Virus record (IMG/VR): IMGVR_UViG_3300040815_001563
Span: 1 to 23,731 of that record
Strand: one strand, 5' to 3'
DNA from: a virus
DNA: 23,731 bases
The position numbers and the translations under genes are program-made. Positions 1,234 to 20,685 of the stretch are shown here, piece by piece. The notes below the pieces were generated by a model that saw only the letters and a program-made list of their open reading frames with translations, was not told the DNA's origin and did no database searches. Every line of letters starts with the position of its first letter. Position 1 is the first letter of the stretch.

Positions 1234-1311
1234 TTAGCCTTTCCCCATCCACCACATTAAAAATGCGATAGAGGGTATTGCTAAAATGGCGATAACGTCA
1301 CCGACGCCCAT
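1234..1311 (-). CDS. Putative membrane micropeptide, 25 aa
   Basis: Short frame reading MGVGDVIAILAIPSIAFLMWWMGKG: a single hydrophobic segment of about 18 residues with a basic tail. It begins 14 bases inside the end of the preceding gene and fills what would otherwise be a gap in the operon. Size and composition fit a one-pass phage membrane peptide. A 78-base frame can arise by chance, so support is modest. Confidence 0.4.
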   Translation of the reverse strand: MGVGDVIAILAIPSIAFLMWWMGKG

Positions 1312-1513
1312 TGTGATAGCCTTTAACCTTCCGGTCCGGCTTATGTGTCTCCCAGCGCCGCCTAACAACGGTAACATTTGGGGACGATATGGCAGTCACT
1401 GACTCATAGTCCGCTTCAGTGATAGGCTCATACTTAGAAGCGTCAATTGTATATCCCTCAAAAGGGTCTTTTCCGACGAGTAGGCGCTCCCATAGTTTAA
1501 GTAGTCTATTCAC
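1298..1513 (-). CDS. Hypothetical protein, 71 aa (GTG start)
   Basis: The frame is open from an ATG at 1522, but the strong Shine-Dalgarno AAAGGAGG (1530-1523) abuts that ATG with no spacer. It lies about 9 bases before the GTG at 1513, so GTG (VNRLLKLWERLLVGK) is the probable start. The N-terminus is a basic amphipathic helix, the middle is acidic (ITEADYESVTA), and the tail is very basic (VVRRRWETHKPDRKVKG). First gene of the leftmost minus-strand operon, directly behind the promoter at 1552-1580. Family unknown. Confidence 0.6.
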   Translation of the reverse strand: MNRLLKLWERLLVGKDPFEGYTIDASKYEPITEADYESVTAISSPNVTVVRRRWETHKPDRKVKGYHNGRR

Positions 1514-1522
1514 GTATATCAT

Positions 1523-1588: not shown

Positions 1589-1630
1589 AGCCGGATGTCA
1601 GAATCGAACTGACGACAACCGCATTAAATT
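1589..1630 (-). pseudogene. 3' half of a tRNA gene (anticodon loop to acceptor)
   Basis: The minus strand from 1630 to 1589 reads as the 3' half of a tRNA. It has loop bases ending TTTAA, a 3' anticodon arm TGCGG, a 5-base variable region TTGTC, a perfect T-arm GTCAG-TTCGATT-CTGAC, an acceptor strand ATCCGGC and discriminator T. Counting back from the T-arm puts UUU (Lys) in the anticodon, but bases 32-33 are AA instead of the usual CU. No D-arm, 5' anticodon arm or 5' acceptor precedes it; the tRNA-Thr CCA end lies only 16 bases away. A matching 5' acceptor GCCGGAT followed by TA occurs at 2211-2219 on the same strand, across the HNH and tRNA-Thr genes. Confidence 0.7.
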
Positions 1631-1646
1631 GTTGTATAATAATAGT

Positions 1647-1721
1647 TGGAGCCTCCGCTGAGAGTCGAACTCAAATCTCTTCATTACAAGTGAAGTGTAA
1701 TAGCCATTATACTACAAAGGC
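1647..1721 (-). tRNA. tRNA-Thr (UGU), CCA encoded
   Basis: Acceptor GCCTTTG pairs with CGGAGGC through G-C, A-T and G-T pairs. The anticodon arm is CTTCA-CTTGTAA-TGAAG with anticodon TGT (reads ACA). The T-loop TTCGACT is canonical with stem TTGAG/CTCAG. Discriminator T is followed by an encoded CCA at 1649-1647. A short D-arm (GTA...TAC) is present. Confidence 0.93.
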
Positions 1722-1733
1722 AGGAACGGGAAA

Positions 1734-2213
1734 ATGAATCATTGTCTTACATGTAACGCCGAAACAACGAATCCTAAATATTGTAACACATCGTGTGCGG
1801 CCAAGTCAAATAACAAGGGTGTACGGCGAAACGGTAAACCTCCAAAACCGTGTAAGCGCTGTGGAGCGGTGCTAAGTCGTAACAGTGAACAATATTGCAG
1901 CACAAAGTGCTTCCAATATAGTCAACTTGAGAAAAGGATTGAATCAGGGTCCTTCTCTAGCACAACTGCTAAAAAATGGTTAATTAAAGAGCATGGATCA
2001 ACATGCTCTGTCTGCGGTCAAGGTGAGTGGATGGGTCAGAATATGCCCATCGAAATCGACCACATTGACGGTAACTCCGAAAATAATGACTTAACAAACC
2101 TCAGACTGATGTGCCCAAACTGCCACGCACAGACACCAACCTATAAATCCCGAAACACAGGCAACGGCAGGCACTACCGGCGAGAAAGATATCTACAAGG
2201 TAAAAGTTATTAA
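1734..2213 (+). CDS. HNH homing-type endonuclease with zinc-ribbon N-terminus, 159 aa
   Basis: Predicted free-standing HNH endonuclease that would nick or cut DNA, probably a mobile 'homing' gene. Three Cys-pair zinc modules are visible: C4-C7/C17-C21, C40-C43/C55-C59, and C91-C94/C127-C130 around the catalytic core. The HNH motif is IDHIDGN (Asp109-His110), with Asn residues following near 118-123 and CPNCH (His131). The tail is basic. It is the only plus-strand gene in the minus-strand tRNA cluster, starting 13 bases from tRNA-Thr and ending 10 bases from tRNA-Arg. A weak AGGA lies 8 bases before the ATG, and a possible TTACAA-18-TATACT promoter lies antisense inside tRNA-Thr. Its stop codon is embedded in GCCGGATTA (minus strand), which looks like the 5' end of an interrupted tRNA. 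Confidence 0.9.
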   Translation: MNHCLTCNAETTNPKYCNTSCAAKSNNKGVRRNGKPPKPCKRCGAVLSRNSEQYCSTKCFQYSQLEKRIESGSFSSTTAKKWLIKEHGSTCSVCGQGEWMGQNMPIEIDHIDGNSENNDLTNLRLMCPNCHAQTPTYKSRNTGNGRHYRRERYLQGKSY

Positions 2214-2219
2214 TCCGGC
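2211..2219 (-). other. Candidate 5' end of an interrupted tRNA (GCCGGATTA)
   Basis: Minus strand GCCGGAT pairs perfectly with the orphan acceptor strand ATCCGGC at 1590-1596. It is followed by TA, the usual tRNA bases 8-9, and sits four bases after the discriminator of tRNA-Arg, where the next tRNA of a tandem array would begin. The following bases do not form a D-arm because the HNH coding sequence takes over. A 7-base match could be chance, so confidence is moderate. Confidence 0.45.
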
Positions 2220-2223
2220 GAAG

Positions 2224-2298
2224 TACCCCCGGCAGGATTTGAACCTGCGACCTAGAGATTAGAAGGCTCTTGCGCTATCCAGACTGCGCCACGGAGGC
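2224..2298 (-). tRNA. tRNA-Arg (UCU)
   Basis: Acceptor GCCTCCG pairs with CGGGGGT (one G-T at each of positions 1 and 4). D-stem is GCGC/GCGC. The anticodon loop CTTCTAA carries TCT, which reads AGA. T-arm is GCAGG-TTCAAAT-CCTGC and the discriminator is A. CCA is not encoded. The closing pair of the anticodon stem is a C-T mismatch. It is one base downstream of tRNA-Ser, so the two are surely co-transcribed. Confidence 0.92.
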
Positions 2299-2708: not shown

Positions 2709-3095
2709 TCAGCCCTCTTTCGTCTCCACAGATAGATAAGTACCAAGTTCTTTCTCTAGCATATCAAGCGGGCGAGCCCCAACCATGCTAGTCTCGGACT
2801 TTCCATCAACAAAAACCATCATCGTAGGAATGCTATTAATATCGAAACGCTCCATCAACAAGGGGGCCTTGTCTGCCTCAACCTTGATAACTTGCATCTC
2901 ATCAGCATACTTTGCTGCAAACTCGTCAAGAATTGGTGCCTGCATCTTACACGGACCGCACCAGTCGGCCCAAAAGTCCACCAGTACCGGCTTAGCCGAC
3001 GTAGACACAATATGCTCAAACTGCTTCTCATCAACAGGTACAGCGTACCCGCCTGTAAGGACAACTCTCTTCATGGGTTCATCGTTTCGTTTCAT
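2709..3095 (-). CDS. trx: Thioredoxin
   Basis: Thioredoxin-fold disulfide oxidoreductase of 128 residues, slightly longer than the usual ~105. The active site is W45-C-G-P-C-K50 after the strand PVLVDFWAD, and the cis-proline is in SIPT (Pro90). All are standard, so it should be redox-active with host thioredoxin reductase. Phage thioredoxins supply reductant for ribonucleotide reductase or act on host proteins; which applies here is not shown. The ATG at 3095 lies exactly 6 bases behind a TAAGAT -10 box, so a leaderless message is likely. An internal Met8 is an alternative start. It is divergent from the first oxygenase gene, with only 70 bases between. Confidence 0.92.
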   Translation of the reverse strand: MKRNDEPMKRVVLTGGYAVPVDEKQFEHIVSTSAKPVLVDFWADWCGPCKMQAPILDEFAAKYADEMQVIKVEADKAPLLMERFDINSIPTMMVFVDGKSETSMVGARPLDMLEKELGTYLSVETKEG

Positions 3096-3101
3096 ACTAG
3101 T

Positions 3102-3130
3102 ATCTTAGCACATAAACAAGGGTAGAGCAA
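3102..3130 (-). promoter_or_regulatory. Sigma70-type promoter, leaderless, for thioredoxin
   Basis: Minus strand TTGCTC, 17 bases, TAAGAT, then six bases (ACTAGT) before the ATG of thioredoxin. Transcription would begin at or next to the A of ATG. It is adjacent to the divergent promoter at 3131-3159. Confidence 0.65.
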
Positions 3131-3159
3131 TTGCATTTTGCGAGCCGTTTTACTAAAAT
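3131..3159 (+). promoter_or_regulatory. Sigma70-type promoter, leaderless, for the plus-strand oxygenase operon
   Basis: TTGCAT, 17 bases, TAAAAT, then six bases (ATGCTT) before the ATG at 3166. Box spacing and the six-base gap match the other leaderless candidates in this window. This implies that the in-frame ATG at 3160 is not the start. Confidence 0.65.
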
Positions 3160-3165
3160 ATGCTT

Positions 3166-3861
3166 ATGTTAGTACGAGATAACTTTCTTAGCGATCCAGA
3201 GATGATTGCCGCCATCAAAGCCGACGATACATTCTTCCCGCCAGTAATGGAAACATTTGAAGACCGTGGAAGTCTAGGCGACCTTCAGGGGCAACAGTAC
3301 CACAGCGAGGAAGCATCGTGCTACGCCCCCTACATGTTTTGGGATGGGTGGTGGAACTCTCCTGCCAACACGTTAAAGAAACAGGTGATCCAACAAATTT
3401 GGCAATGCCCCGAAAGTAGAGACTTCGATTTGGGCGACATTGTAGGCTTCGAATATTGGACACGCACCTTTGTGCCGCCACAATACTTACCACATCATGT
3501 GGACGAGGACACGTTCCAGTACGCTTTAGATAAAACTTTTAATGCCCCTATTAGCGGATGCATATGGTATGGGTTCTCTGAAGCACCAGATGGTGGGATG
3601 CTTGAAATACATAAGCCAACAATTGAGGGTTCCCCGTGGCAGGTTTTAGACAATGGGCAGATCGAAGCATATCTTAGCGGGCCAGAGGATCGTGAAAGAA
3701 TAGCGTACAAACCCAACCGGCTAATCGTATTCGACGCAGGGCGTAGAATGCACGAAACTACCCCATTAATAAACGGTAAGCGTCAGATCATGGTAGTGAA
3801 TGTCTGGCACAAAGACAGCCCGCCCATGGCGCTACAGACAGGTGAGTTTTTCTATGAATGA
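3166..3861 (+). CDS. 2-oxoglutarate/Fe(II)-dependent oxygenase, 231 aa
   Basis: Predicted non-heme iron dioxygenase that couples 2-oxoglutarate decarboxylation to hydroxylation of an unknown substrate. The double-stranded beta-helix signature is visible: the HxD pair is in PHHVDED (His111, Asp113), and the distal part reads PNRLIVFDAGRRMHETTPL with His196 and the 2-oxoglutarate-binding Arg206 ten residues on. The insert between the two halves is longer than in the neighbouring oxygenases. The start at 3166 is chosen over 3160 from the promoter spacing. It overlaps the next oxygenase gene by 8 bases. It differs from the CWWK-type group below. Substrate unknown. Confidence 0.82.
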   Translation: MLVRDNFLSDPEMIAAIKADDTFFPPVMETFEDRGSLGDLQGQQYHSEEASCYAPYMFWDGWWNSPANTLKKQVIQQIWQCPESRDFDLGDIVGFEYWTRTFVPPQYLPHHVDEDTFQYALDKTFNAPISGCIWYGFSEAPDGGMLEIHKPTIEGSPWQVLDNGQIEAYLSGPEDRERIAYKPNRLIVFDAGRRMHETTPLINGKRQIMVVNVWHKDSPPMALQTGEFFYE

Positions 3862-4726
3862 AATACAGGCAGAACACATAGGCTTAGGTGTTTTACGCTT
3901 CCCATCAGCAGCCACTGTTAATTCAGAAATGCTGGATATAATCGACACACTCCGAACTGAAGCCCTTAAATCGCACTACACCTATGTATACGACGAAAAT
4001 GGAGACATTCTTCATGCAACCAACCTGAGTGGGCACCGGTTTACCCCAGAGGAAATAGACAGTAACTGTGTCCGAATAAACAACTTTAACGACTTGCATG
4101 AACAGCATCAAAAAGATTACTTTGCTAATCTAGAAAATGAACTCTACGCTGCCCTAATAAATTATGCAAACAACTTCCCTATGGCTTTACCGTGCCTCTG
4201 GTGGAAAACTAAAGGCCACGTCCTCTCATACTCCGATGGAGCATCACTAGGGTTGCACGCAGATAACGACATAAATTACAAGCCTAATTTTGAGCCAGAC
4301 TACCAACTAGGAACAAAGCACGTACTGGCCGCAATCGCCTACCTTAACGACGACTACGAAGGTGGCGAAATAGAATTCCCGTATCTAGGAATCAAGTATG
4401 CCCCAAAAGCCGGAGACATTTTAATGTTTCCAGCAAACTTTATATACGCTCACGAAGTAAACAAAATAACTAAAGGCACTCGGTACGCATATCTAGGTTA
4501 CTTTGGTCAAGGTTCTTCAGACCCTGAACACGGAGTAACAATAATTGAAGACAGCCCCAATATCTACAGCGGGCAAGTATGGATGAACGACCTATTCATC
4601 GACTACTCACAGTTCTTGGATGACAACGGTATAGAGAACGACCACAACAGAATACCGCTACAACGTGCGTTCCACTCGTCTGGTACCAGAAAGGAAATCA
4701 GAAATGCAGAAAATGCCGCTAGTTAA
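3854..4726 (+). CDS. 2OG/Fe(II) oxygenase, prolyl-4-hydroxylase type, 290 aa
   Basis: The longer frame from 3800 is unlikely; ATG 3854 has GGTGAG seven bases upstream and overlaps the previous stop. The catalytic domain shows CLWWKTKGHVLSYSDG (about 114-129), then HADND with His135 and Asp137, YLNDDYEGGEIEFP (163-176), PKAGDILMFP, distal His200 in YAHEV, and Arg210. This is the P4Hc/2OG-FeII_Oxy_3 layout. A conserved WMNDLFIDYSQFL follows near residues 250-262, shared with three paralogs on the minus strand. All iron and co-substrate ligands are present, so activity is expected; the substrate is unknown. Confidence 0.88.
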   Translation: MNEIQAEHIGLGVLRFPSAATVNSEMLDIIDTLRTEALKSHYTYVYDENGDILHATNLSGHRFTPEEIDSNCVRINNFNDLHEQHQKDYFANLENELYAALINYANNFPMALPCLWWKTKGHVLSYSDGASLGLHADNDINYKPNFEPDYQLGTKHVLAAIAYLNDDYEGGEIEFPYLGIKYAPKAGDILMFPANFIYAHEVNKITKGTRYAYLGYFGQGSSDPEHGVTIIEDSPNIYSGQVWMNDLFIDYSQFLDDNGIENDHNRIPLQRAFHSSGTRKEIRNAENAAS

Positions 4727-5315
4727 TATCCCATACTTCTTGGGTCTTATTGATGGGATTGACAATGAACTTATAGCCGAACAAATCACAAAGTTCGGTA
4801 AGCCAGCAGGAAACGGCAGTCACCCCCTAGACGATCAAGCAGTAAACGACGGTGACATACTCTTGCCAGATTCACCAGAAATAAACCAATTACTACTACA
4901 GTTAACACGACTCGCACAACACGCATCAGAAAACCAAGAACTAACCCTCAAATCACAATGGGCGGTTAGTCTTAAAGAAGGAAGAAGTGTAGGCCCCCAC
5001 TCGCATCACGCAAACTATCACATGTACCCCGAAGACTACTGGTCGGCGGTATACTACCCTGTCGCAGACGAGTCATCAGCACCGCTTATTCTGTCTGCAA
5101 CTTGGTGTAACGTGGTAAACAGGCAGGCCCGGATACAGCCACAAACCGGCATGTATGTTATCTTCCCTTCCTACATACAGCAATGGACTAGCCGACAAGC
5201 CTCATCGGAGCCTAGACTGGAAATCGGCGCAAACTTTGATCCCGCAGAGCCTAACACAGAACCAAACGTAGACTTCTCAATCTACGACCGGCGTCCCCCC
5301 ATCGACACTGCCTGA
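4704..5315 (+). CDS. 2OG-oxygenase-like protein lacking the distal histidine, 203 aa
   Basis: ATG 4704 (MQKMPLVNIPYFLG) is preferred because AAGGAA lies upstream. The central part SQWAVSLKEGRSVGPHSHH, then WSAVYYP and later GMYVIFPSYIQQW...EPRLEIGANF, follows the pattern of the putative 2OG-FeII_Oxy_5 family (first ligand in the PHSHH region, His99-His102; Arg171 near the end). Where that family carries the distal His (FPSxLxH), this protein has Gln159-Gln160. It may therefore be inactive, use another ligand, or bind something else. It is third in the plus-strand operon, and its end overlaps the converging minus-strand oxygenase by 34 bases. Assignment is from motif memory and is tentative. 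Confidence 0.62.
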   Translation: MQKMPLVNIPYFLGLIDGIDNELIAEQITKFGKPAGNGSHPLDDQAVNDGDILLPDSPEINQLLLQLTRLAQHASENQELTLKSQWAVSLKEGRSVGPHSHHANYHMYPEDYWSAVYYPVADESSAPLILSATWCNVVNRQARIQPQTGMYVIFPSYIQQWTSRQASSEPRLEIGANFDPAEPNTEPNVDFSIYDRRPPIDTA

Positions 5316-6052
5316 CTATCATTGATTAAGTTCGGCATCCAAATGCGATGCCCCTCTTGCCCAACAGTCTCGTTGTTGGCGATGTCAACACCGTAACACG
5401 CCACGCTCAGATAGGCTACACGCCTGCCAGAAGTTACCGGAAACACTTCGTGCCGCCCAACATAGTTAGTTGGGTACACGGCCACTGAGCCAGCCTCTGG
5501 AGCAAAAGCGTACTCCGCATGAGGGAAATTCAGTTCGCCTCCAGTATAGTCTTCGCCGCAAGTGTTTAGATAAAGATTTATGCTAATGTTGTTATACATA
5601 GAAACCTGATTAGGGGGTGTCTCCCCCCACTCAAACGGAATCTGGTCATCACAGTGGGGGCCAATGTTCTGACCGGGGTCATAAACTGCGATATGACCTT
5701 GCGGTCTCCACCACGCCGTAGTAGCAGCATCAGGAAAAATAGAACAGTAAGTTACAAGAGCATCATAAATTGCTTTGTCACAAGAATCAACAAAATCTAA
5801 AAACTTCTGCGGTGTTTCATCACTACGGGTCTGCCCACGCACATCAAGAAACCTCTGCGGAGCCATATGAATCTCTTCAATACTAAACTTGAAACCAGTC
5901 TGATTTACAGCATGGTCCTCCTTAATGTTGAAAGTCTCTTCGGGCTCGCCCGTCAACCAAGCACAATACTCAGTAAAAATAGACTTATCAAACTCAAGAG
6001 CGTCTCTACAAATAACGACGCCCATACCTACATGCTCTGCAGAAATCATCAT
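5282..6052 (-). CDS. 2OG/Fe(II) oxygenase, prolyl-4-hydroxylase type, 256 aa
   Basis: Complete P4H-type dioxygenase. It shows WWRPQGHIAVYDPG (114-127), HCDD (His133, Asp135), YLNTCGEDYTGGELNFP (161-177), distal HEV (His201) and Arg211. It ends with the family feature WMPNL near residue 240. The ORF opens with two Met codons: GGAGGG sits one base from the first (6052) and at better spacing from the second (6049), and the first overlaps the upstream stop. Second gene of the operon driven by the promoter at 6952-6980. The most divergent of the four CWWK-type paralogs, with Arg for Lys in the WWK motif. Substrate unknown. Confidence 0.85.
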   Translation of the reverse strand: MMISAEHVGMGVVICRDALEFDKSIFTEYCAWLTGEPEETFNIKEDHAVNQTGFKFSIEEIHMAPQRFLDVRGQTRSDETPQKFLDFVDSCDKAIYDALVTYCSIFPDAATTAWWRPQGHIAVYDPGQNIGPHCDDQIPFEWGETPPNQVSMYNNISINLYLNTCGEDYTGGELNFPHAEYAFAPEAGSVAVYPTNYVGRHEVFPVTSGRRVAYLSVACYGVDIANNETVGQEGHRIWMPNLINDSQAVSMGGRRS

Positions 6053-6945
6053 CCCTCCGAATTAATTAATGTAACTCTATACTGCTCTGAACTTTTATCG
6101 AAACCGGCCTCTTCTAAGTAAGCCCTGTAATCCTCCCGTAGCGTGGGCATCCACACATTCGTGCTATTCTCCGCCCCCTCGGGATTTAGAAGTGGGTCAC
6201 AAACGTCTTCCCTAACCTCAGAGTTTGGGGTACCCTGAGAGTACCACCCAAGATACGAGAGCCTTCTACCCTTCCCTACCGGTAACACTTCGTGTCCTGC
6301 GACAAAGTTAGACGGGAAGAACAAGATAGAGCCACGCTCCGGCGTGATAGTGCCAACATCTTTCAAATAATTGAAGTTGTGTAGACCTTGTGTAAAGTTT
6401 CGGCCATTCAAATCATCAGCGTCAACTGAAGAATTTAGATAGGTTACAGTAGAGACAACACTTCGTAAAGCAAGTTCCTGCGGGGTTCGGTGAACTCCGT
6501 AAATGTACTCTGCGCTAATGTCTGAATGCGAACCAAGATAGACCCCATCACCATATGAAACTACATGGCCCTTAACCTTCCACCATACGCAGTTGTACGC
6601 TAGAGGGTATCGTGTAAAGTACTTTAGTAAGCAGCGGTCTTTTGCCGCCTCTAGTTCTTTAAGTAGATTCCTGACCTCATCGCTGGGGTTTAAATGCAAT
6701 GAGGAGCCCCTTCTAGGCATAGACATATAGGTGTCTAAACCAAAAATGTAGCCGCTTCTATTCTCGTAAGCAACCTCACCAGTCTCCGGATCGACAGTCT
6801 CTGTGTACATTTCTGAGAACTCTTCATCGACCAAATTAGATACAGTGTCATAAACTTTATCCCAATCACAAGAGATAGCGTTTCTAAACAACACCACCCC
6901 GTTGCCTAGGTCCTCCGGTTCAGCATCGTTGTGTGATATAAACAT
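6049..6945 (-). CDS. 2OG/Fe(II) oxygenase, prolyl-4-hydroxylase type, 298 aa
   Basis: Paralog of the 3854 and 7773 oxygenases. Motifs are CVWWKVKGHVVSYGDG (119-134), HSD (His140, Asp142), TYLNSS..., ITPERGSILFFPSNF, distal GHEV (His218) and Arg228, followed by the C-terminal WMPTLREDYRAYL. Between the sheet strands it has an acidic loop (SSVDADDLNGRNF) also seen in the 7773 protein, suggesting close kinship of these two. First gene behind a consensus promoter; its ATG is exactly six bases after the -10 box, so its message is probably leaderless. It couples by ATGA to the next oxygenase gene. Confidence 0.87.
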   Translation of the reverse strand: MFISHNDAEPEDLGNGVVLFRNAISCDWDKVYDTVSNLVDEEFSEMYTETVDPETGEVAYENRSGYIFGLDTYMSMPRRGSSLHLNPSDEVRNLLKELEAAKDRCLLKYFTRYPLAYNCVWWKVKGHVVSYGDGVYLGSHSDISAEYIYGVHRTPQELALRSVVSTVTYLNSSVDADDLNGRNFTQGLHNFNYLKDVGTITPERGSILFFPSNFVAGHEVLPVGKGRRLSYLGWYSQGTPNSEVREDVCDPLLNPEGAENSTNVWMPTLREDYRAYLEEAGFDKSSEQYRVTLINSEG

Positions 6946-6951
6946 GTGTCT

Positions 6952-6980
6952 ATTCTACTTGTAAAGATATGATGTGTCAA
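6952..6980 (-). promoter_or_regulatory. Consensus sigma70 promoter, leaderless
   Basis: Minus strand TTGACA, 17 bases, TAGAAT, then six bases (AGACAC) to the ATG of the 298-aa oxygenase. The -35 and spacer lie within the 3' end of the upstream TauD-like gene. Confidence 0.75.
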
Positions 6981-7776
6981 TCTCTGGATGGCTACAAAAA
7001 TAACCTAAGAACTGACGTTCATCACGTTTAAACCCACCGCTAACAGCGTGAGACATTACAAACAAGTCACTAACAAGCAGGTCACCGTTCTGCCAACTCC
7101 ACACAAGTTGATTGTATGGATTCAAAACTATTTCAGTCTCAACTACGTCAACACACTTAACGAAGAAATTAGTTTCATCGTTTGAGGGCTTACCACCATT
7201 AAACGATATCAAATCTACGTCGCTTTGACATATCCTAACAACATCGGCGTTTTTAAATGGGTGTTTAACTATAGCATCTCTAGCAACTTTAGTTGTGACG
7301 TTTCCCTTGTTATCAACTACAACTTTACTACCTATCACACACTTTCTCAAAAAGTCAACAACTTCAGATGAGAGTGTGTCTATAATTTTAGAGTTATCTG
7401 TGAAATATGTTTTTCCTACATCTGCGGAGCAGGAGAACTTCTGCATGTTCCAAAATCCTGCAACAGTAGAATTTTCCAAAGACGAATGAACATGCTCTAA
7501 ATGCCAGTTAACCGCAAAATTATTCGGAGTGTGCTCACCGTAGCAAAAGGTATGCGAATGATCCTCGCTGTACCGCCGCAGAACAGAACGATCAAAATCG
7601 TCTGAACGGGGAGTCCACCCAACATAATCGCCAATCGCTAAAATTATGTCTATCTGCTCTTCCTCAGAAGCGAACAATCCACGAAAACCGTAGACGCCTT
7701 CTTCTAGAAACTTTTCAGCAAAATACTTGGAGTCCCGAATTATGTCACTAAACGAACACTCAACAACGTCAATCAT
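6955..7776 (-). CDS. TauD/TfdA-like 2OG/Fe(II) dioxygenase, 273 aa
   Basis: Different subclass from its neighbours. N-terminal residues EEGVYGFRGLFASEEEQIDI and DYVGW resemble the start of TauD/TfdA-type dioxygenases, with WHLEHVHS supplying His92-x-Glu94 as first ligands. The C-terminal NGDLLVSDLFVMSHAVSGG carries distal His243, followed by Arg254 for 2-oxoglutarate. Family members hydroxylate small free molecules such as taurine, amino acids or carnitine precursors. The large middle insertion (about 115-215) is unusual and the substrate cannot be read. Last gene of the long operon that begins at 11206; its ATG overlaps the preceding oxygenase stop. Confidence 0.8.
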   Translation of the reverse strand: MIDVVECSFSDIIRDSKYFAEKFLEEGVYGFRGLFASEEEQIDIILAIGDYVGWTPRSDDFDRSVLRRYSEDHSHTFCYGEHTPNNFAVNWHLEHVHSSLENSTVAGFWNMQKFSCSADVGKTYFTDNSKIIDTLSSEVVDFLRKCVIGSKVVVDNKGNVTTKVARDAIVKHPFKNADVVRICQSDVDLISFNGGKPSNDETNFFVKCVDVVETEIVLNPYNQLVWSWQNGDLLVSDLFVMSHAVSGGFKRDERQFLGYFCSHPEIDTSYLYK

Positions 7777-8834
7777 GACTCAATTGGTACAGGGTCCGTC
7801 CCACAGTTAGCATTTTCGTCCAAAACCTCTGCCTCATGAGTTGAACCATACTGGGCAACACATCGACCCTGATAGACAGGGTTAATGCCTTGATTCTGCT
7901 CAGCGCCTGTACTAATGCGGGAATACTCAGACTTACAATACTTCTCGTAATCGTCATAAATGTTGTTCATCCACATCGCTGGGCACCACTGGTAACTATC
8001 CTCAGGCTCAACAATATTAATGTTTGCGTCCATGTGCGGAGAGCCCTGACCAAAGAAAGACAAGTAACTATATCGTACACCCGAATTCATACGGCTAACC
8101 TGATGTGAAGCCATATAGTTCGTGGGGAAGAAAACGATGTCGCCCTTCTGGGGCTTGTAGTCGATGCCCAAATGGAAAAACTCTAAATGTCCGCCAGTGA
8201 AATTTGTACCATCTAACTCGTCGTCTGTGTCAACAGAGTCATTAAGATAAACTAAACATCCACATGTCTGTCTCGCCGCCATCTGACCCCGAGGCATATA
8301 ACGCACACCTTCAGTCACCTTATAGTTAGTGTCGTTATCACAGTGCGCTCCCAAAATACCTTCATCTTCGTAGCGAAGAATATGGCCACGGTTCTTCCAC
8401 CAAACACAACCCACCATGAGAGGGAAGTAGTCAATGTATCGGAGCAAAGCCTTGTAGATAACGTCTTCCATATCATGAAAGAATTTTCTTGGAACTTCGG
8501 GGGTATCCTCAATAACCGGATGAAGTAGTCGCACAGGAGTAGAAGGAATGTCCTCTGGCCGATACCTAAAGCCGTCCTCATTAATACCGTACTTTTCACC
8601 ATCTTCACCAACTATATATTCCCACCTGTTTTGGTGTGAAACTACAGACTTCTCATCAATGTATTTAAATACTTCGGTAGGATCGGCAGTTAAAGCGCCA
8701 CGAAAAACTAGGACACCTCCACCTAAATCCTCAACGTCGAAATCAGCAATTTCCTTAATAGCGGCGTCATCAATAAGAGGGGTGTCCGGGTGCGGATCAC
8801 CACTCCGCTCCGGAGGAGTGTTAAAATCAGTCAT
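7773..8834 (-). CDS. 2OG/Fe(II) oxygenase, prolyl-4-hydroxylase type, 353 aa
   Basis: Longest of the oxygenases. A Pro/Asp-rich N-terminal tail of about 30 residues precedes VEDLGGGVLVFRGAL, a segment shared with the 298-aa paralog. The core has CVWWKNRGHILRYEDE (143-158), HCDND (His164, Asp166), YLNDSVDTDDELDG (acidic loop), GHLEFFHLGI, PQKGDIVFFPTNY, distal SHQV (His244) and Arg254. WMNNIYDDYEKYC follows near 290-303, then a tail of about 50 residues with unknown role. It starts two bases after the upstream methyltransferase-like gene stops; AAAGAAG upstream may be its ribosome-binding site. Confidence 0.87.
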   Translation of the reverse strand: MTDFNTPPERSGDPHPDTPLIDDAAIKEIADFDVEDLGGGVLVFRGALTADPTEVFKYIDEKSVVSHQNRWEYIVGEDGEKYGINEDGFRYRPEDIPSTPVRLLHPVIEDTPEVPRKFFHDMEDVIYKALLRYIDYFPLMVGCVWWKNRGHILRYEDEGILGAHCDNDTNYKVTEGVRYMPRGQMAARQTCGCLVYLNDSVDTDDELDGTNFTGGHLEFFHLGIDYKPQKGDIVFFPTNYMASHQVSRMNSGVRYSYLSFFGQGSPHMDANINIVEPEDSYQWCPAMWMNNIYDDYEKYCKSEYSRISTGAEQNQGINPVYQGRCVAQYGSTHEAEVLDENANCGTDPVPIES

Positions 8835-8836
8835 GT

Positions 8837-9580
8837 TTACTTCTTTACTAGAATGTGGAACCCGAGAGCGTGCGGGATGTGGTAAGACGTAATATCGTCT
8901 CGCTCATGAATCTGCTCGTAAAAATCAAACAAAGGTTCAATATAATATTTGTCTGAATACAAACGCATATTTTCATTAGAAGGTGCCGTATAAATAACAC
9001 CACCCGACCTTGTTAGATCAATAACCTTATCCAAAAGAGGAGGATTGATGAGCGTGTCCACCGTGTGGATATGCACAAAATCAAACTGCGCCCCATCTAG
9101 ATTCTCTAACTCTTCTATGTCAACAACGTTGTAATCTCCCTCCCACGGGAACTCTGGGCGTGTCAAAACGTGTCTCTCAAAAATATCAAGACATTCATTA
9201 TTAACAAACGTCATGTTGCAGCCCTTACGTTGCATATCAGCAGCAAAATCAAAGTTTCTGTCAGGAGTCAACATTAACACGTCAGTAGGCTTAGCGATAT
9301 CAGCAGACATCTGTGAATAGAGGCCAGTGCAAATGAAAACCGTTTCTTTCCATCCAGCCACTGCACCAGAAACCAAATCCCACGTATGCAAATAAAAATC
9401 ACTGCCAACCGCAATAGCCCGACGATCAAGACCTAAAGATGCCCACTCCGCCCGCAACGTTTTAGCCACATCGTCATGGAACGAGAAGAAGTCGTAGTCT
9501 AATTCACGGGAAGAGTTTTGAGAAAACTCGTAAGTCAGTGCGTTCGCAATTAAAAATTTGCTACCAAGAATCTTATCCAT
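8837..9580 (-). CDS. Class I methyltransferase-fold protein, 247 aa (function uncertain)
   Basis: The arrangement resembles a Rossmann-fold SAM-dependent methyltransferase. TVFICTGLYSQMSADI (about 80-95) sits at motif I, VLMLTPDRN (101-109) at the second strand, FDFVHIHTVDTLINPPLLDKVIDL (166-189) at motif IV and the helix after it, and SGGVIYTAPSNE (192-203) at the post-IV strand. The glycine-rich E/DxGxGxG of motif I is degenerate (ICTGLYS), so SAM binding is not assured. Start ATG 9580 overlaps the upstream stop by 8 bases. Its place directly before two oxygenases suggests a shared modification pathway. A non-catalytic Rossmann protein is the main alternative. Confidence 0.6.
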   Translation of the reverse strand: MDKILGSKFLIANALTYEFSQNSSRELDYDFFSFHDDVAKTLRAEWASLGLDRRAIAVGSDFYLHTWDLVSGAVAGWKETVFICTGLYSQMSADIAKPTDVLMLTPDRNFDFAADMQRKGCNMTFVNNECLDIFERHVLTRPEFPWEGDYNVVDIEELENLDGAQFDFVHIHTVDTLINPPLLDKVIDLTRSGGVIYTAPSNENMRLYSDKYYIEPLFDFYEQIHERDDITSYHIPHALGFHILVKK

Positions 9581-9869
9581 TAACTCTACCCTTCGCTAAC
9601 TGCCAGCGATGCCACAACCTACGGCTATTCATCATCACAAGAATATTTATCTCCTTCAAAGCATCATTAGAGGCGACTGAAGTCCCTTCCAACCGCTTAA
9701 ACGGAAAGTTACCCTTTAGCGCATCCACGATGCTATCAAACGTGGACGAATTAATATCTGAAGTGTCCATGCCTAGAACATACATAATTGACACTATTTC
9801 TCGCTCAATATATGCCAAGTCTTTACTGGCATCATACGTCGGTGTGTTTCTGTTACCAACTCTACTCAT
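9573..9869 (-). CDS. Hypothetical protein, 98 aa
   Basis: Mostly helical, starting MSRVGNRNTPTYDASKD, with a basic C-terminus (MMNSRRLWHRWQLAKGR). The stretch EIVSIMYVLGMDTSDIN resembles NIVSLAMMLNVDTATLT in the 72-aa protein two genes upstream, which suggests a common small helical module. ATGA overlap with the upstream gene. Family not recognised. Confidence 0.6.
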   Translation of the reverse strand: MSRVGNRNTPTYDASKDLAYIEREIVSIMYVLGMDTSDINSSTFDSIVDALKGNFPFKRLEGTSVASNDALKEINILVMMNSRRLWHRWQLAKGRVNG

Positions 9870-10138
9870 TGTGCTAAATCATCCCAGTCTTCCTCGGGAA
9901 AAGGAATAGGTGTATTGCGGGCGTTAGTCTCACTGGTAATCAGTTCACACAGGTATCCCTCTCCTGAAGGAAAGTTCCAAGCAGGAATAGAATAATCAAA
10001 ACGCACGGGCTGCTCCTTGACCGACGATGTGTCAGCGGGATCAGGACCGTCATCGGGCTGACCAAAAGCATTAACGTCAACTCCCGCATCCACGGCTTCG
10101 TCTTGAATTGTGCGATCAGTTATATTGTAGTTCTTCAT
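9866..10138 (-). CDS. Hypothetical acidic protein, 90 aa
   Basis: Strongly acidic and low in hydrophobics over residues 10-45 (DGPDPADTSSVKEQP), hence probably disordered at the N-terminus. A short aromatic segment (FDYSIPAWNFPSGEGYL) and an acidic end (PFPEEDWDDLAQ) follow. It sits between two small helical proteins, with ATGA overlaps on both sides. No family recognised. Confidence 0.55.
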   Translation of the reverse strand: MKNYNITDRTIQDEAVDAGVDVNAFGQPDDGPDPADTSSVKEQPVRFDYSIPAWNFPSGEGYLCELITSETNARNTPIPFPEEDWDDLAQ

Positions 10139-10353
10139 GCCTCAAGAGCCTCTAAATTCGTCACCATCTTTACCAGCGTCGTATAAGCCGGATAGTCTGG
10201 ATCGGCATTAGAAACTGGAATCTCATATGCAGAAGTAAGCGTAGCAGTATCAACATTTAGCATCATCGCTAACGACACAATGTTTTGATTGAGAAAGTCG
10301 ATTGCCTTCTCTTTGGCCTTCTGCCGCTGTTCTTCTGAAATTGTTACAGCCAT
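10135..10353 (-). CDS. Hypothetical helical protein, 72 aa
   Basis: Starts MAVTISEEQRQKAKEK behind a good GAGGAAAGA ribosome-binding site. Three helices are predicted: a charged N-terminal one, NIVSLAMMLNVD, and TTLVKMVTNLEALEA. The middle segment matches the 98-aa protein of the same operon in pattern. It begins seven bases after the 281-aa gene. No known family. Confidence 0.6.
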   Translation of the reverse strand: MAVTISEEQRQKAKEKAIDFLNQNIVSLAMMLNVDTATLTSAYEIPVSNADPDYPAYTTLVKMVTNLEALEA

Positions 10354-10360
10354 TCTTTCC

Positions 10361-11206
10361 TCACAGTCTATATATTTCTAGTTTCATACTATTATATGAT
10401 ACACAAGCACGATACAGTTGTGCAAGTCTTGGACGAGGCTCCTCCATCAGATTATTTTCTGTCGCCCACAACCTAAACGACAGCGGCATATCTGGTTCTT
10501 CTTCAGAAAGAACACACGAACCCGTCTTGAAATATTGTGCTATTTGTTGATCTGGCAGTTGCATCAAGTCCCTCACAACAGGGTCAGATTCAGCATTATC
10601 TACATTAAGCCCAAAATGACTTAGAAGCGTATCAGCGGCCTCTGCGGCGGGCTCAACACTACCAGTATGTATCTTCGCCCACTGCCACTCTAACATCAAT
10701 TTAAAGAACTCATGTAACGTAGCAGAACCAAAGTACGGATGTATCATCGACGTACGCCTTAACAAACCATCACCCTTCTCGTCCACTTGGGTATAGATAA
10801 TGTACCCCACATCGGGATCGTGGAACAACGTCAAATGCTTCTGAATCATACTCAAAAAGTCATTGATGTGGTCTAATACGATTGTACGGTAATCCTCACG
10901 CCCGTACAACTCGTCCATGGTTCTAGGTAGATGTGTCTCTGTCGAAGAACACAAAGGGTACATCCAGTGATCGGTGTGATTTTCCTTAGGGCAAGATGCC
11001 CAAAGCCTATAAATTTTATTGAAACGATTAACAGCGCCCACCTCTACAGGGCGCATCATTGGAGTGATAATGTCGATTAAATCTTGCAAATCCTCATAAT
11101 CGTTTGGATCATAGCCTGCCTCAGTTATCATCAAGTCTAGCCTAGGCTTAATCTCATTCATTTTTTCTTGCAAAGACGCTTTGCGGATATTGTTTGAAAG
11201 TCGCAT
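10361..11206 (-). CDS. Hypothetical protein, 281 aa
   Basis: First gene of the long operon running to 6955, with AAAGGATAG before the ATG. Mostly helical, with a basic N-terminus (MRLSNNIRKASLQEKMNEIK) and a segment DLQDLIDIITPMM. A Trp/His/Cys-containing middle (WASCPKENHTDHWMYPLCSS) could bind a metal. Then comes a long helical part with LHEFFKLMLEWQWAK and a C-terminal region containing LWATENNLMEEPRPR. No catalytic signature I can name. The small downstream proteins may be its partners. Confidence 0.6.
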   Translation of the reverse strand: MRLSNNIRKASLQEKMNEIKPRLDLMITEAGYDPNDYEDLQDLIDIITPMMRPVEVGAVNRFNKIYRLWASCPKENHTDHWMYPLCSSTETHLPRTMDELYGREDYRTIVLDHINDFLSMIQKHLTLFHDPDVGYIIYTQVDEKGDGLLRRTSMIHPYFGSATLHEFFKLMLEWQWAKIHTGSVEPAAEAADTLLSHFGLNVDNAESDPVVRDLMQLPDQQIAQYFKTGSCVLSEEEPDMPLSFRLWATENNLMEEPRPRLAQLYRACVSYNSMKLEIYRL

Positions 11207-11229
11207 AACTATCCTTTCGCTATGATACT

Positions 11230-11238
11230 ATTCTACCA
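11230..11238 (-). promoter_or_regulatory. Extended -10 promoter element TGGTAGAAT
   Basis: Located between the peroxidase-like gene and the 281-aa gene, with no good -35 at 17 bases, but with the TGN extension that compensates for this. It almost repeats the element at 1552-1560. The start site would be near 11223, followed by AAAGGA and ATG 11206. Confidence 0.5.
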
Positions 11239-11241
11239 TAC

Positions 11242-11859
11242 TCAGTAGTCCAGTACCTCGTCAATGCACTCCCTAATAGTCCAACTCTCACCAGTCGTCA
11301 ACGGAACATCATCAAGAGGATCGCTTTGCCAATTAAATCTGGTAATCATCTGACCGTTCCTACCTACAATAAACTTTTCCCAACTATGGGGAATTCTCGC
11401 AACAGCCCCACCTGACTTGTTCCATCCCTCCTGTGCCGCATCGGAGGTATCTGCAGGCGAAGCGGCCTTAACCCTGACAACGTTACCCAGCAAAGCAGAA
11501 TAAACTAGGCTACCATCTCTACCGTTTACATCAATCTTTTCGGATAAAGGGAACCGTACAAACGGGTAGACTTGCTTCATCCACGCAGAAATCTCATGAT
11601 TATCTGACGGTTCCATCTGCCCGAACTGGTTGCACGGGAAACCCACCACACTAAACCCTCGGTCCTTAAACTCGTCATGAACCTGCTGTAGTTGCCAAAA
11701 CTGCCGCACTGTTCTAGCATACGACCAAAAAGTGCTACACTGCGGTGTGTAACCCAACTTGGAAACAGTGTTGACAACTAAGGTCACCTTACCATCGAAC
11801 TGTTGCATGAAATCAGGCTCACCGTCCAACGAATTCATTTGAATGTCATAAACGCTCAT
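11242..11859 (-). CDS. Glutathione-peroxidase-like protein without catalytic cysteine, 205 aa
   Basis: Thioredoxin-fold protein aligned by eye to the GPx family: an N-terminal beta-hairpin, VTLVVNTVSKLGYTPQ (25-40), GFSVVGFPCNQFGQMEP (68-84), and WEKFIVGRNGQMITRF (160-175). In active GPx proteins the NVASxCG motif holds Cys or Sec; here Leu35 replaces it. The WNF of the active site appears as His158-Ser159, and only Gln78 of the Cys-Gln-Trp-Asn tetrad remains. Cys41 lies six residues after Leu35 and Cys76 is the usual FPCNQF cysteine. An insertion of about ten residues follows residue 42. It is probably not a classical peroxidase. Start ATG 11859 overlaps the previous stop. Confidence 0.78.
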   Translation of the reverse strand: MSVYDIQMNSLDGEPDFMQQFDGKVTLVVNTVSKLGYTPQCSTFWSYARTVRQFWQLQQVHDEFKDRGFSVVGFPCNQFGQMEPSDNHEISAWMKQVYPFVRFPLSEKIDVNGRDGSLVYSALLGNVVRVKAASPADTSDAAQEGWNKSGGAVARIPHSWEKFIVGRNGQMITRFNWQSDPLDDVPLTTGESWTIRECIDEVLDY

Positions 11860-12167
11860 TGCTTACTCCAAGGATCACTGCCATCTGAAACCTCCCCATA
11901 AATTGGGCAAGTCAACATTGACTTTCCAGAAAAAGAATCAATAATATCGACAACTCCGCCCAACACCCCATTGTCTACCTTGCTACACACAATCTTAACA
12001 ATACACTCAAACGGTGTATTAGTAGTGCCAAGCATTATGATGTTATTTTCAGAAACAGCAGACTCTTCAAAATCTAGTTTACCCTTAAACATATGGGCAC
12101 TACCGTTATCACCATCAGGAAGATGTAAAAGAAACTTCTCGCTGCCTAGGGGCGTGTGAACTGTCAT
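11856..12167 (-). CDS. Small beta-rich protein, 103 aa
   Basis: ATG 12167 (MTVHTPLGSEKFLLHLPDGD) overlaps the upstream stop as ATGA; a frame four codons longer exists but is less likely. The sequence alternates short strands and turns: TPLGSEKFLLHL, then GKLDFEESAVSENNIIML, then TPFECIVKIVCSKVDNGVLGG. This repeats the pattern of small lipocalin-like or beta-sandwich domains found in uncharacterised bacterial proteins. No signal peptide. It lies between the DUF6065 gene and the peroxidase-like gene in one coupled operon. Confidence 0.6.
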   Translation of the reverse strand: MTVHTPLGSEKFLLHLPDGDNGSAHMFKGKLDFEESAVSENNIIMLGTTNTPFECIVKIVCSKVDNGVLGGVVDIIDSFSGKSMLTCPIYGEVSDGSDPWSKQ

Positions 12168-12895
12168 TGAGTATACCAATTTGGAACCTCCGGTATTTCG
12201 GGGTCTTGAAGATCAACGAGTCCGTCATGGCGAGGACCAATACGGTTATTGTCTGCATCCAAGCCCGTGCGGATACCATTCATCCATGTCCACGGCTCGT
12301 CTTGCATCTTCTGCATCTTTGCTTTGTTGTACTTCATTCGACTGTCAATCAAATCTGGCTTATCCCACAGATTCTCTACAGTACACTCCATGTTAGGCAT
12401 CAGGTTAGAATCAAAAACAAAAAAGAAAGCAAACGGCATACCCTTAGGGAACACAACTTCTTTGCCAACTTCCGTGATCTTCCAAGCCATCTGCACCTCG
12501 TCAGGCCACCAGTCACTAGGAATGATGGCTGACAGAGGAGTAGCGCCCTCAACAAAATAGTTAGGAGGTCCTGTCACCCACGTGTGGTGACCTTCTTCGG
12601 TATTAAACGCCCAGCCCAACTGGAAGTCAACCATACCAATCTTGTTGCAGTTAGCCACCATTCTATGATCGTGTTCTCCACCCTCAATCAAAGTAGGGAC
12701 ATTCATTCCGCCATCCCACTTCACAACAACATCGCACGGCAACAGAATTTCCCACCCATTCACGTTAGCCATGCTTACTGGCAAACATCTGTAGGCGTGC
12801 TTGTTATAAGTGTCGTCCATCCAATCACGCCGCAGACTAGCCTGCTGAACGTGCGGAGACGCTTGGTGTGTACGTACCAGTGTTAACTTACTCAT
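12164..12895 (-). CDS. DUF6065 family protein, 243 aa
   Basis: Start ATG 12895 (MSKLTLVRTHQASPH) overlaps the preceding oxygenase stop (ATGA); the longer frame from 12949 is not needed. I recognise the DUF6065 signature RRDWMDDTYNKHAYRCLP (22-39) and MANVNGWEILLP (42-53), then WDGG and later GPPNYFVEGATPL. The biochemical role of DUF6065 is unknown. Family members occur, as far as I recall, near iron/2-oxoglutarate enzymes in phages and bacteria, which agrees with this neighbourhood. C-terminus rich in Trp and Asp. Not membrane-bound. Confidence 0.8.
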   Translation of the reverse strand: MSKLTLVRTHQASPHVQQASLRRDWMDDTYNKHAYRCLPVSMANVNGWEILLPCDVVVKWDGGMNVPTLIEGGEHDHRMVANCNKIGMVDFQLGWAFNTEEGHHTWVTGPPNYFVEGATPLSAIIPSDWWPDEVQMAWKITEVGKEVVFPKGMPFAFFFVFDSNLMPNMECTVENLWDKPDLIDSRMKYNKAKMQKMQDEPWTWMNGIRTGLDADNNRIGPRHDGLVDLQDPEIPEVPNWYTQ

Positions 12896-13752
12896 CGTGT
12901 CATCTGGTAGGTGTACGTGTTGTTTCCGGACTTCTGCTGTGCTTCCCAACTAGCAACAGCATACTTGTGAATCTCTTCGTGGACGATCTGGCGAAGTTGT
13001 TCTTCGCCCATACCTGCGATAACTTCAACCTTGCCGCCTTCAGGGAACGTAGGCTTAGCAGGCTGTTCGTTAGTCTGACCAAAATCACGAGAGAACCCGC
13101 CATGCTTATGGGCATCATCATTATAGTCAAACATTGTGACGGCAGAATACTTAACACCAGAAGTAACTGGTAGAGAAGCGTGAGCAAAAAGGTATGTGGA
13201 TGGGAAGAACACAGAGTCACCTGCTTCTGGCTTGTATGAAATGTCAAGCAGAGGGAAGTGGAGTTCGCCACCTTCGTAGTCATCGTTCAGATACATAACG
13301 TTAGACACAGTGCAAATGTAAGAAAATCCGTGGTCAGTGTGAACACCGAAGTGCTCATTAACACCATACCGCACAAAGTTGATCGCCTCCATGTACTGCA
13401 TGTTGATGTTGTACATGCTCTGATAATGTCGCAGTCCGTCGTTAATTCTAGACGAAACATCTGTGTAGATGCCGTTGATTTCTGAGAACTCCGCAGGGGT
13501 GTTAGCCATGTACTCTTCAGCCATCTTAAAGTCAACACAATCACGATACTCTGGCATCTTAACGCCCTCGCCTACGAGAGAGTCGTGCCACTTGAAGTAT
13601 TCGTGCTCACTGTTATCTAAAGCAGAGTGTAACCTATCTGGAACATAGGTAACGCCGTCAAGACAATTCTTGTACACCACGATACCCAAGATAGGGTCTC
13701 CAATGTACTCGTAGTCGAACTTTGGCTCTATGTTGGTTTTTCCGTATCCCAT
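12892..13752 (-). CDS. 2OG/Fe(II) oxygenase, prolyl-4-hydroxylase type with Lys co-substrate residue, 286 aa
   Basis: P4H-type catalytic domain: INFVRYGVNEHFGVHTDHG (His138, Asp140), MYLNDDYEGGELHFP (153-167), PEAGDSVFFPSTYLFAHASLP with distal His191, then VTSGVKYSAV, where Lys201 takes the position that is Arg in the neighbours. Lys is the residue used in collagen and algal prolyl-4-hydroxylases. A C-terminal extension of about 70 residues is charged and partly helical (GEEQLRQIVHEEIHKYAVASWEA). The ATG lies six bases behind a TATTAT box, so a leaderless message is probable. It heads the operon with DUF6065, the beta-rich protein and the GPx-like protein. Confidence 0.86.
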   Translation of the reverse strand: MGYGKTNIEPKFDYEYIGDPILGIVVYKNCLDGVTYVPDRLHSALDNSEHEYFKWHDSLVGEGVKMPEYRDCVDFKMAEEYMANTPAEFSEINGIYTDVSSRINDGLRHYQSMYNINMQYMEAINFVRYGVNEHFGVHTDHGFSYICTVSNVMYLNDDYEGGELHFPLLDISYKPEAGDSVFFPSTYLFAHASLPVTSGVKYSAVTMFDYNDDAHKHGGFSRDFGQTNEQPAKPTFPEGGKVEVIAGMGEEQLRQIVHEEIHKYAVASWEAQQKSGNNTYTYQMTR

Positions 13753-13758
13753 GCGTCT

Positions 13759-13787
13759 ATAATATCAAACATACCGTGTGGAGTCAA
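13759..13787 (-). promoter_or_regulatory. Consensus sigma70 promoter, leaderless
   Basis: Minus strand TTGACT, 17 bases, TATTAT, then six bases (AGACGC) to the ATG of the 286-aa oxygenase. The -35 lies in the 3' end of the upstream oxygenase gene. Confidence 0.75.
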
Positions 13788-14340
13788 ATCTTTCTAGGAC
13801 ATGCCAAAACGTTGTGATGTTCAGGCGCTCTCCCGAGTTAACTCTAGAAACTTGATGCAAATACTTCTCGCTGGTAGGGAAAGTGACTAGCGTCCCTGCC
13901 TTTGGGTAAAAAAATAAATCTTGGTTTGGAAGAAAAAGATCACCGCCCGTGAAATCCTCACCATAGTTACTGAAATAAACCAGTGTCGATATATCTCTAG
14001 ATGGGTAGCCCGCATATGTTGAAAGATTCATAGACTTTTCTTGGTAACTGTCGGCGTGCAGAGACAAATCCCACCCCTCTAAAGCGCAAACGACTGACGC
14101 TAATTCCTCTACACCAACTTTGCACGAATAATAGTCTTCGATAAAATCTTTAATTCTAATATTTAAATCTTCCATAAGCGGGAAAAGTACTTCACTTTCT
14201 CCCGTCTGGACGTACCTGTCATAGGCGTGGCCTTCAACATCGTATCTCTCCAACATGCTGAGTTCAGAAATAAAGGTATCTAGAGCCGCACTGTCAATAA
14301 AGTTTGGGTAAACTACTACACCATCGTACTCTTTAATCAT
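13765..14340 (-). CDS. 2OG/Fe(II) oxygenase, 191 aa
   Basis: Compact dioxygenase. Start ATG 14340 (MIKEYDGVVVYPNF) is chosen because GAGAG lies seven bases upstream and it overlaps the previous gene's stop by 8 bases. Ligands are LHADS (His95, Asp97), distal YLHQVSRVNSGERLN (His162, Arg172), with the linking strands LVYFSNYGEDFTGGDLFLP and PKAGTLVTFP. The whole fold fits in fewer than 200 residues, close to the minimal P4H domain. It pairs with the 213-aa oxygenase in a two-gene operon, and the two share the PNFID/ENFID N-terminal feature, so they may be an old duplication. Confidence 0.85.
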   Translation of the reverse strand: MIKEYDGVVVYPNFIDSAALDTFISELSMLERYDVEGHAYDRYVQTGESEVLFPLMEDLNIRIKDFIEDYYSCKVGVEELASVVCALEGWDLSLHADSYQEKSMNLSTYAGYPSRDISTLVYFSNYGEDFTGGDLFLPNQDLFFYPKAGTLVTFPTSEKYLHQVSRVNSGERLNITTFWHVLERFDSTRYV

Positions 14341-20488: not shown

Positions 20489-20529
20489 GGCCTCAACCGA
20501 TCCTTAAACAGAAAGTGCCCTCAAGCACA

Positions 20530-20557
20530 ATACTAGTACTACACTTAGTATACACAA
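20530..20557 (-). promoter_or_regulatory. Candidate promoter for the S74 fibre gene
   Basis: Minus strand TTGTGT, 16 bases, TAGTAT, in the 197-base gap between two fibre genes. The start site would be near 20523, giving a leader of about 35 bases with AAGGA before GTG 20488. Spacing is one base shorter than in the other promoters of the window. Confidence 0.45.
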
Positions 20558-20593
20558 AGAGGTGGGGCCAGTCATTCAACCAACCCCACCCCT
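20558..20593 (-). terminator. Candidate terminator hairpin after the 588-aa fibre gene
   Basis: The transcript of the minus strand can pair GGTGGGG with CCCCACC over a 16-base loop, extendable outward by three or four pairs, followed by TCTTTGTGT. The T-tract is weak. The position, just upstream of the next candidate promoter, supports a transcription boundary. A smaller stem CACGG/CCGTG at 20661-20677 lies right after the stop codon. The rest of the 20489-20685 gap holds no gene I can support. Confidence 0.5.
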
Positions 20594-20685
20594 CGTCGGG
20601 TATTTCCTCGCCTGCACGGCGTAACTACCGTCCCCACTGTAACCATGGACTCGGTAGCGCCACGGATGTTTACCGTGACATCTTA

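Follow-up and report, generated by a model that had tools for sequence, protein, structure and literature searches.

The window, by which we mean the whole 23.7-kb virus record analyzed here (itself a fragment), carries a tRNA array on its minus strand. The array includes tRNA-Ser(UGA) (TGA in DNA; 2390-2300, minus strand) and tRNA-Arg(UCU) (TCT; 2298-2223, minus strand), the latter being the left neighbor of an invaded site and kept in relatives. At 2219-2211 (minus strand) lies a short 5′ remnant, GCCGGATTA, which comprises an acceptor strand and positions 8-9 and is assigned below to a resident tRNA-Thr(UGU). It is overlapped by the stop codon of an intact gene (1734-2213, plus strand) that encodes an HNH homing-type endonuclease of 159 amino acids and runs in the opposite direction to the tRNAs. 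A complete tRNA-Thr(UGU) (TGT; 1721-1647, minus strand) with encoded CCA, called by ARAGORN and matching the Rfam tRNA model with 59.8 bits, is referred to here as the spare tRNA. A 20-nt spacer (1646-1627, minus strand), delimited by sequence and alignment, separates it from the 3′ remnant of the resident tRNA-Thr(UGU) (1626-1589, minus strand; tRNA profile match over 1588-1626), which runs from TAATG, the end of the anticodon loop, through the T arm and acceptor to the discriminator base. The spacer could include a decayed anticodon arm. The far-side boundary of the invaded site is formed by a small ORF of 74 amino acids (1298-1522, minus strand).

Directly after the 3′ remnant, the minus strand contains a perfect 7-bp hairpin (1566-1583; GCGTTGT ACTC ACAACGC), which folds much better than shuffled sequences (z -5.7) and is not followed by a T run. 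Elsewhere in the window, at least seven genes at 3160-14974 match 2OG-Fe(II) oxygenase families, an unusual density, beside tail-fiber genes. Tail-fiber-like proteins with long repeats are encoded at 15013-16053 and 16065-22452, with FFPPFFPPYFPP found in one protein and GNVTGDVTGDLTG in two others.

Resident tRNA-Thr(UGU) gene in relatives of the window

Relatives of the window were obtained via the neighboring oxygenase-like gene. Two of them, L006 and L007, possess no HNH gene at the site and carry an intact tRNA-Thr(TGT) directly after tRNA-Arg. In both, the sequence after tRNA-Arg begins with CTTCGCCGGATTAACTCAGTTGG, and the tRNA-Thr ends with CATCCGGCT (in L007, GGCATCCGGCT); the complete gene in L006 reads CTTCGCCGGATTAACTCAGTTGGTAGAGTACTTCACTTGTAATGAAGATGTCGTCAGTTCGATTCTGACATCCGGCT, and the L007 version is nearly identical. 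The bases GCCGGATTA, present once on the minus strand of the window and absent from the plus strand, open the tRNA-Thr of both relatives at the same distance from tRNA-Arg as in the window, and window positions 2210-2268 (spacer and first tRNA bases) are 86% identical to L006/L007. The last 39 nt of the window 3′ piece are 92% identical to L006, and this piece aligns to the L006 tRNA with a local score of 68, compared with 33 for the best of 1000 shuffles. By this comparison of sequences, the pieces at 2219-2211 and 1626-1589 (minus strand) are the two ends of a single tRNA-Thr(UGU) gene.

These data bear on several claims of an earlier note on this DNA. Its two separated tRNA pieces are real, and the intact tRNA it had looked for in relatives free of the HNH gene was found in L006 and L007 (GCCGGATTA...CATCCGGC), which supports its proposal that a tRNA was destroyed by homing-endonuclease invasion. 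The note had placed the 3′ half at 1630-1589; this is a tRNA 3′ end, but the clear match starts at TAATG (1626), within the anticodon loop, and not at 1630. Its assignment of the broken gene to tRNA-Lys was wrong, the broken tRNA being tRNA-Thr(UGU). The note also missed that the inserted tRNA-Thr is an isoacceptor of the broken gene, so that the insertion provides what it destroys, and that the arrangement recurs elsewhere and for tRNA-Pro.

Relative to L006, the window is without 26 nt (ACTCAGTTGGTAGAGTACTTCACTTG) and holds 584 nt in their place, consisting of the HNH gene, 12 nt, the second tRNA-Thr(TGT), and the 20-nt spacer. The spare tRNA-Thr(UGU) is 66% identical to the intact L006 allele. 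Homologs of the small ORF at 1298-1522 occur at the equivalent place in L006 and L005, hence homologous sequence borders the invaded site at either end. The window copy is irregular, with a reversed HNH gene and a 5′ half cut to 9 bases, and may represent a rearranged or an old insertion.

In L005, only the 5′ part of tRNA-Thr is left (3790-3826, minus strand; GCCGGATTAACTAAGTGATGTAGATT). The site is free of an HNH gene, and the 33.6-kb record yielded no tRNA-Thr; this leftover is possibly a repair scar or an escape allele. L003 carries a different tRNA-Thr at the position. Together, L005 and L003 indicate that the position is unstable in this group, and since L005 lost most of its tRNA-Thr without an HNH gene, loss has other routes too.

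Interrupted tRNA-Thr(UGU) and tRNA-Pro(UGG) genes in other phages

HNH relatives were gathered from viral contigs and named phages and scanned for HNH genes flanked by tRNA halves whose acceptors are complementary. The contigs are for the most part metagenomic fragments, tRNA isotypes are anticodons called by ARAGORN, and the evidence is comparative throughout. The scan returned several cases; with a D-arm motif as a requirement, shuffled sequences yielded 0.2 per set. A split tRNA (2872-3465) in L101 and L103 surrounds both an HNH gene and a whole tRNA-Thr(TGT). The unsplit form was sought with a pattern allowing any base in the middle of the anticodon and was identified in L282, which holds no HNH match and carries the tRNA-Thr intact in a Leu-Thr(TGT)-Asn-Ile array. 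Alignment of L103 with L282 gives 87.4% identity across 1470 bp of one flank and 96.4% across 618 bp of the other flank. The L103 break point lies within the anticodon (CACTT / insert / TAATGAGG), with one G lost, and the window 3′ half, starting with TAATG, points to the same site. The cassettes of L101 and L103 are 98-100% identical, whereas their wider surroundings are 69-88% identical (one neighboring tRNA, 96%), which is the pattern expected of a recently moved element; it is only consistent with preferred inheritance in mixed infection.

HNH genes and tRNA-Thr accompanied by tRNA remnants were also found in L100, L229, L232, L243, and the isolate Synechococcus phage DSL-LC03 (L165; OR003938), in which a 5′ tRNA remnant, the HNH gene, and tRNA-Thr follow one another. 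In XbC2, GAP32, iF6, and AM24, an HNH gene or HNH match adjoins tRNA-Thr, and other named phages have different tRNAs or none annotated. The L147/L148 loci are rearranged, with a target isotype that is not clearly readable, and L142 was rejected as a false pairing, its 5′ piece lying within coding sequence.

A different HNH lineage is found at tRNA-Pro(TGG). A near-identical pair is formed by L091 and L092, whose flanks are 99.9% identical over 2158 bp and 99.7% over 579 bp. In L092, tRNA-Pro(TGG) is intact, whereas in L091 it is interrupted behind the 3′ anticodon-stem strand by a net insertion of 643 bp, which contains an HNH gene and a second tRNA-Pro(TGG) that shares 80.5% identity with the target. 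Remnants of a tRNA enclose HNH and tRNA-Pro(TGG) in L175, L178, and L179, and a 5′ remnant precedes HNH and tRNA-Pro in L174 and L189; the anticodon TGG is still legible in the 5′ remnants of L179, L185, and L189. In L099 and L185, the HNH gene lies within a split tRNA and the insert is without a spare tRNA. The enzyme stop codon TAA occupies the place of the target's anticodon-loop TAA in L096 and L099, and a 3′ tRNA half directly follows the HNH stop in L096, L099, L222, and L274.

Occupied and empty alleles are thus present in related genomes in L091/L092, L103/L282, and the window with L006 and L007; the first two pairs are strong, and that of the window is more diverged. In all three, the isoacceptor carried inside the insert is the one that is broken. 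As read from the alignments, the insertion point is the anticodon for tRNA-Thr or just beyond the anticodon stem for tRNA-Pro. Several broken Thr targets have D stems GCTC or ACTC, and their spare tRNAs have GCAT, GTAT, or CCAT types. A recoded D arm was considered as the basis of resistance and rejected, being a hint only: HNH-linked tRNA-Thr genes in general are of mixed types, the cases are few and related to one another, and the D stem is shared in L091/L092.

Other split tRNA genes were also encountered. Halves of tRNAs surround inserts of ~200 nt in L225 (2836-3110), L226 (2043-2327), L242 (2078-2352), and L253 (1080-1347); three of these four split genes, which lie close to HNH genes of the same family, read as tRNA-Thr interrupted in the anticodon loop. 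Rfam identified group I introns in the L225, L226, and L253 inserts, and those of L225 and L226 suggest that the anticodon region is a preferred target for more than one kind of mobile element. Just ahead of the intron-split tRNA in L253, an abiF RNA match was recorded (1034-1070; Rfam, 50.2 bits). Jumbo-phage tRNA genes of ~105-120 nt with matching acceptor ends, either missed or annotated as over-long, occur in L163 (2707-2824), L171 (2952-3070), L170 (1819-1936), and L162 (2151-2256), suggesting inserts of 30-45 nt near the anticodon.

HNH enzyme and its association with tRNA isoacceptors

The window HNH protein scores above the cut-off for both Pfam HNH and HNH_3, matches PHROG HNH families with values down to 3.8e-26 and the PADLOC homing endonuclease model with 8e-16, and contains all residues invariant in 12 homologs; its gene is intact and its class is that of known homing nucleases. 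No GIY-YIG nuclease domain was detected in this enzyme, HNH models being the only matches in Pfam and PHROG. In the window HNH gene, ACA accounts for 9 of 12 Thr codons, compared with ~25% in the ORFs of the phage. Supply of the enzyme's own codons by the spare tRNA was nevertheless rejected as an explanation: over 50 Thr-linked HNH genes, the ACA excess is small and equal to that of the Pro codon CCA, and so is not specific.

The association with tRNA genes was assessed in 166 dereplicated HNH genes, with 367 tRNAs away from HNH genes as controls. A 5′ tRNA remnant was present at the expected place for 9/166 HNH genes and 0/367 control tRNAs (Fisher p = 2e-5), and either remnant (5′ or 3′) for 19/166 and 10/367, respectively (p = 1e-4); most HNH relatives adjoin intact tRNAs and show no visible remnants. 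Within 300 bp, 55 relatives of the window enzyme have Thr(TGT) as their nearest tRNA, far ahead of Leu(TAA), the next most frequent, with 8; of all tRNAs in the HNH loci, 9.5% are Thr(TGT). Mapped on the enzyme tree, isoacceptor labels require 53 changes, compared with a shuffled mean of 85.1 (0/200 shuffles as low). Pro(TGG) also clusters on the tree, as do Ile(TAT) (e.g., L219, L235, L241, and L258), Met(CAT) (L119, L134, and L141), Leu(TAA) (L132, L205, and L211), and Ala(TGC) (L196, L197, L200, and L201). Among the 166 relatives, HNH clades track particular tRNA isoacceptors at the level of these sequences; the tree describes association and not history, given that near-copies promote clustering, that similarity to the window enzyme decided which loci were included, and that support for deep branches is poor.

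Proposed mechanism, alternative explanations, and known systems

We propose that a compact cassette composed of the HNH gene and the spare tRNA-Thr(UGU) was quite probably inserted into the resident tRNA-Thr(UGU) and took over its role, acting as a homing element. This reading draws on the presence of both resident-gene ends, on the intact allele of relatives, on a tRNA of the same isoacceptor in the insert, and on two further occupied/empty pairs. It is also favored by the L101/L103 cassettes, the remnants beside HNH and tRNA-Thr or tRNA-Pro in other phages, the excess of 5′ remnants at HNH genes over control tRNAs, and the clustering of isoacceptors on the enzyme tree. According to the model, the HNH protein would cut the resident tRNA gene near the anticodon in a co-infecting phage, and repair from the cassette-bearing genome would copy the cassette in, with the tRNA halves or neighboring sequence serving as homology. 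The diverged spare tRNA would evade cutting and supply the lost function, and the phage would come to depend on it. If the spare tRNA indeed stays uncut and supplies this function, the phage could not shed the element without losing this tRNA. Several findings count against the model, namely the intact, remnant-free tRNA neighborhoods of most HNH relatives, the near-identical anticodon arms of the window spare tRNA-Thr and the L006 target, which leave escape from cutting unexplained, and the reversed orientation and 9-base 5′ half in the window.

The spare-less inserts of L099 and L185 and the HNH-free loss in L005 also count against it, and the same loci favor a reading in which two unrelated events took place, i.e., the resident tRNA-Thr decayed or was hit by HNH alone, and the other tRNA-Thr(UGU) came separately by array recombination. 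We regard this as unlikely, as the HNH gene and a same-isoacceptor tRNA arrive together in one insert in L103/L282 and L091/L092, and flanks more than 99.6% identical in the latter pair leave no time for two such events.

Another alternative is that the HNH enzyme acts on RNA, cutting host (and old phage) tRNA-Thr, with a resistant tRNA-Thr carried adjacent to it and the broken gene as a by-product. HNH proteins of defense systems, e.g., Septu PtuB, cut tRNA (PMC13096335), and PADLOC reports a weak similarity of the window HNH to PtuB (1.6e-4). The best family matches are nevertheless homing endonucleases and HNH DNA endonucleases, and an RNA-only nuclease would not account for a DNA insertion placed precisely in the cognate gene, which makes this alternative very improbable.

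A split tRNA joined in trans, as raised in the earlier note, or a self-splicing intron in the tRNA is barely plausible. The acceptor halves of the two window pieces are indeed complementary (7/7 pairs), but both pieces lack the D arm and the 5′ anticodon arm, and neither holds a complete anticodon arm. In Rfam searches, neither the window nor L091, L099, L101, or L103 matched a group I intron, the HNH gene and tRNA nearly fill the insert, and the L101 insert, with ~44 nt besides these genes, is too short to hold a ribozyme. The note's further suggestion of a phage attachment site with a chance 5′ match has practically no probability left: 3′ tRNA halves are typical attachment cores, but homology of the 5′ end to the whole tRNA of L006 and L007 at the same locus extends across the tRNA-Arg/tRNA-Thr junction, which refutes this reading, and no integrase was found among the scanned proteins of the window, the record being a fragment.

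Returning to the cassette model, its wider meaning concerns phage tRNA repertoires, for which the usual explanations are codon usage or resistance to host defenses that cut tRNA. In synthetic home-and-rescue drives, engineered in insects, an important gene is disrupted by a nuclease, and the cassette inserted there brings an altered copy to replace it. We see an even chance that widespread natural drives of this kind act on phage tRNA genes. In this view, HNH lineages, each tied to one isoacceptor (Thr-UGU and Pro-UGG, with Ile, Met, Leu, and Ala as probable further cases), would disrupt their cognate tRNA gene in or close to the anticodon and leave there the enzyme gene and a diverged spare; phage tRNA sets would then be renewed by drive as well as by codon-usage selection. 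If this is true, a nuclease that both breaks and supplies a tRNA would be a further force, tRNA repertoires would be partly made by selfish elements, the presence of unusual, diverged tRNAs and of tRNA fragments within phage arrays would be explained, and engineered gene-drive design would have a natural precedent. The near-identical pair L091/L092 opens the mechanism to direct testing.

As far as sequence tests reach, the cassette belongs to the broad kind of homing endonuclease elements and is neither SegB nor a group I intron. SegB, located in the tRNA cluster of T4/T6, is a free-standing GIY-YIG homing endonuclease that cuts within tRNA genes (Brok-Volchanskaya 2008, as cited in PMC13096335 and PMC2988022), with tRNA-associated homologs that have no isotype preference (PMC13096335). 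Similarly to SegB, which promotes inheritance of its tRNA region, the window endonuclease gene is free-standing among phage tRNA genes; in contrast, its product is an HNH enzyme of isoacceptor-linked relatives, and no broken target tRNA enclosing a cognate spare copy is described for SegB in the available parts of these sources. HNH endonuclease genes likewise lie among the tRNAs of mycobacteriophages, where they were proposed to disseminate tRNA clusters (PMC6409571); in the available part of that source, the proposal concerns whole clusters, with no cognate-tRNA insertion, spare copy, or isoacceptor preference. In the open-licence literature, to which our search was confined, we found no description of an endonuclease gene and a cognate spare tRNA within a broken tRNA gene.

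Two further systems are close in their effect. Mobile group I introns in tRNA genes are inserted in the anticodon loop, are often moved by HNH enzymes, and restore their target by self-splicing; the cassette resembles them in its anticodon-loop insertion and restored target, but it has neither a ribozyme nor room for one, and restoration would come from a second gene copy. Similarly to a home-and-rescue drive, the insert breaks a gene and carries a changed replacement copy; unlike the synthetic version, it is natural, resides in phages, and concerns tRNA genes, and its spare copy is presumed to resist cleavage. By analogy, the cassette would work like a home-and-rescue drive, or like a mobile intron, except that the target would be restored by a copy instead of by splicing.
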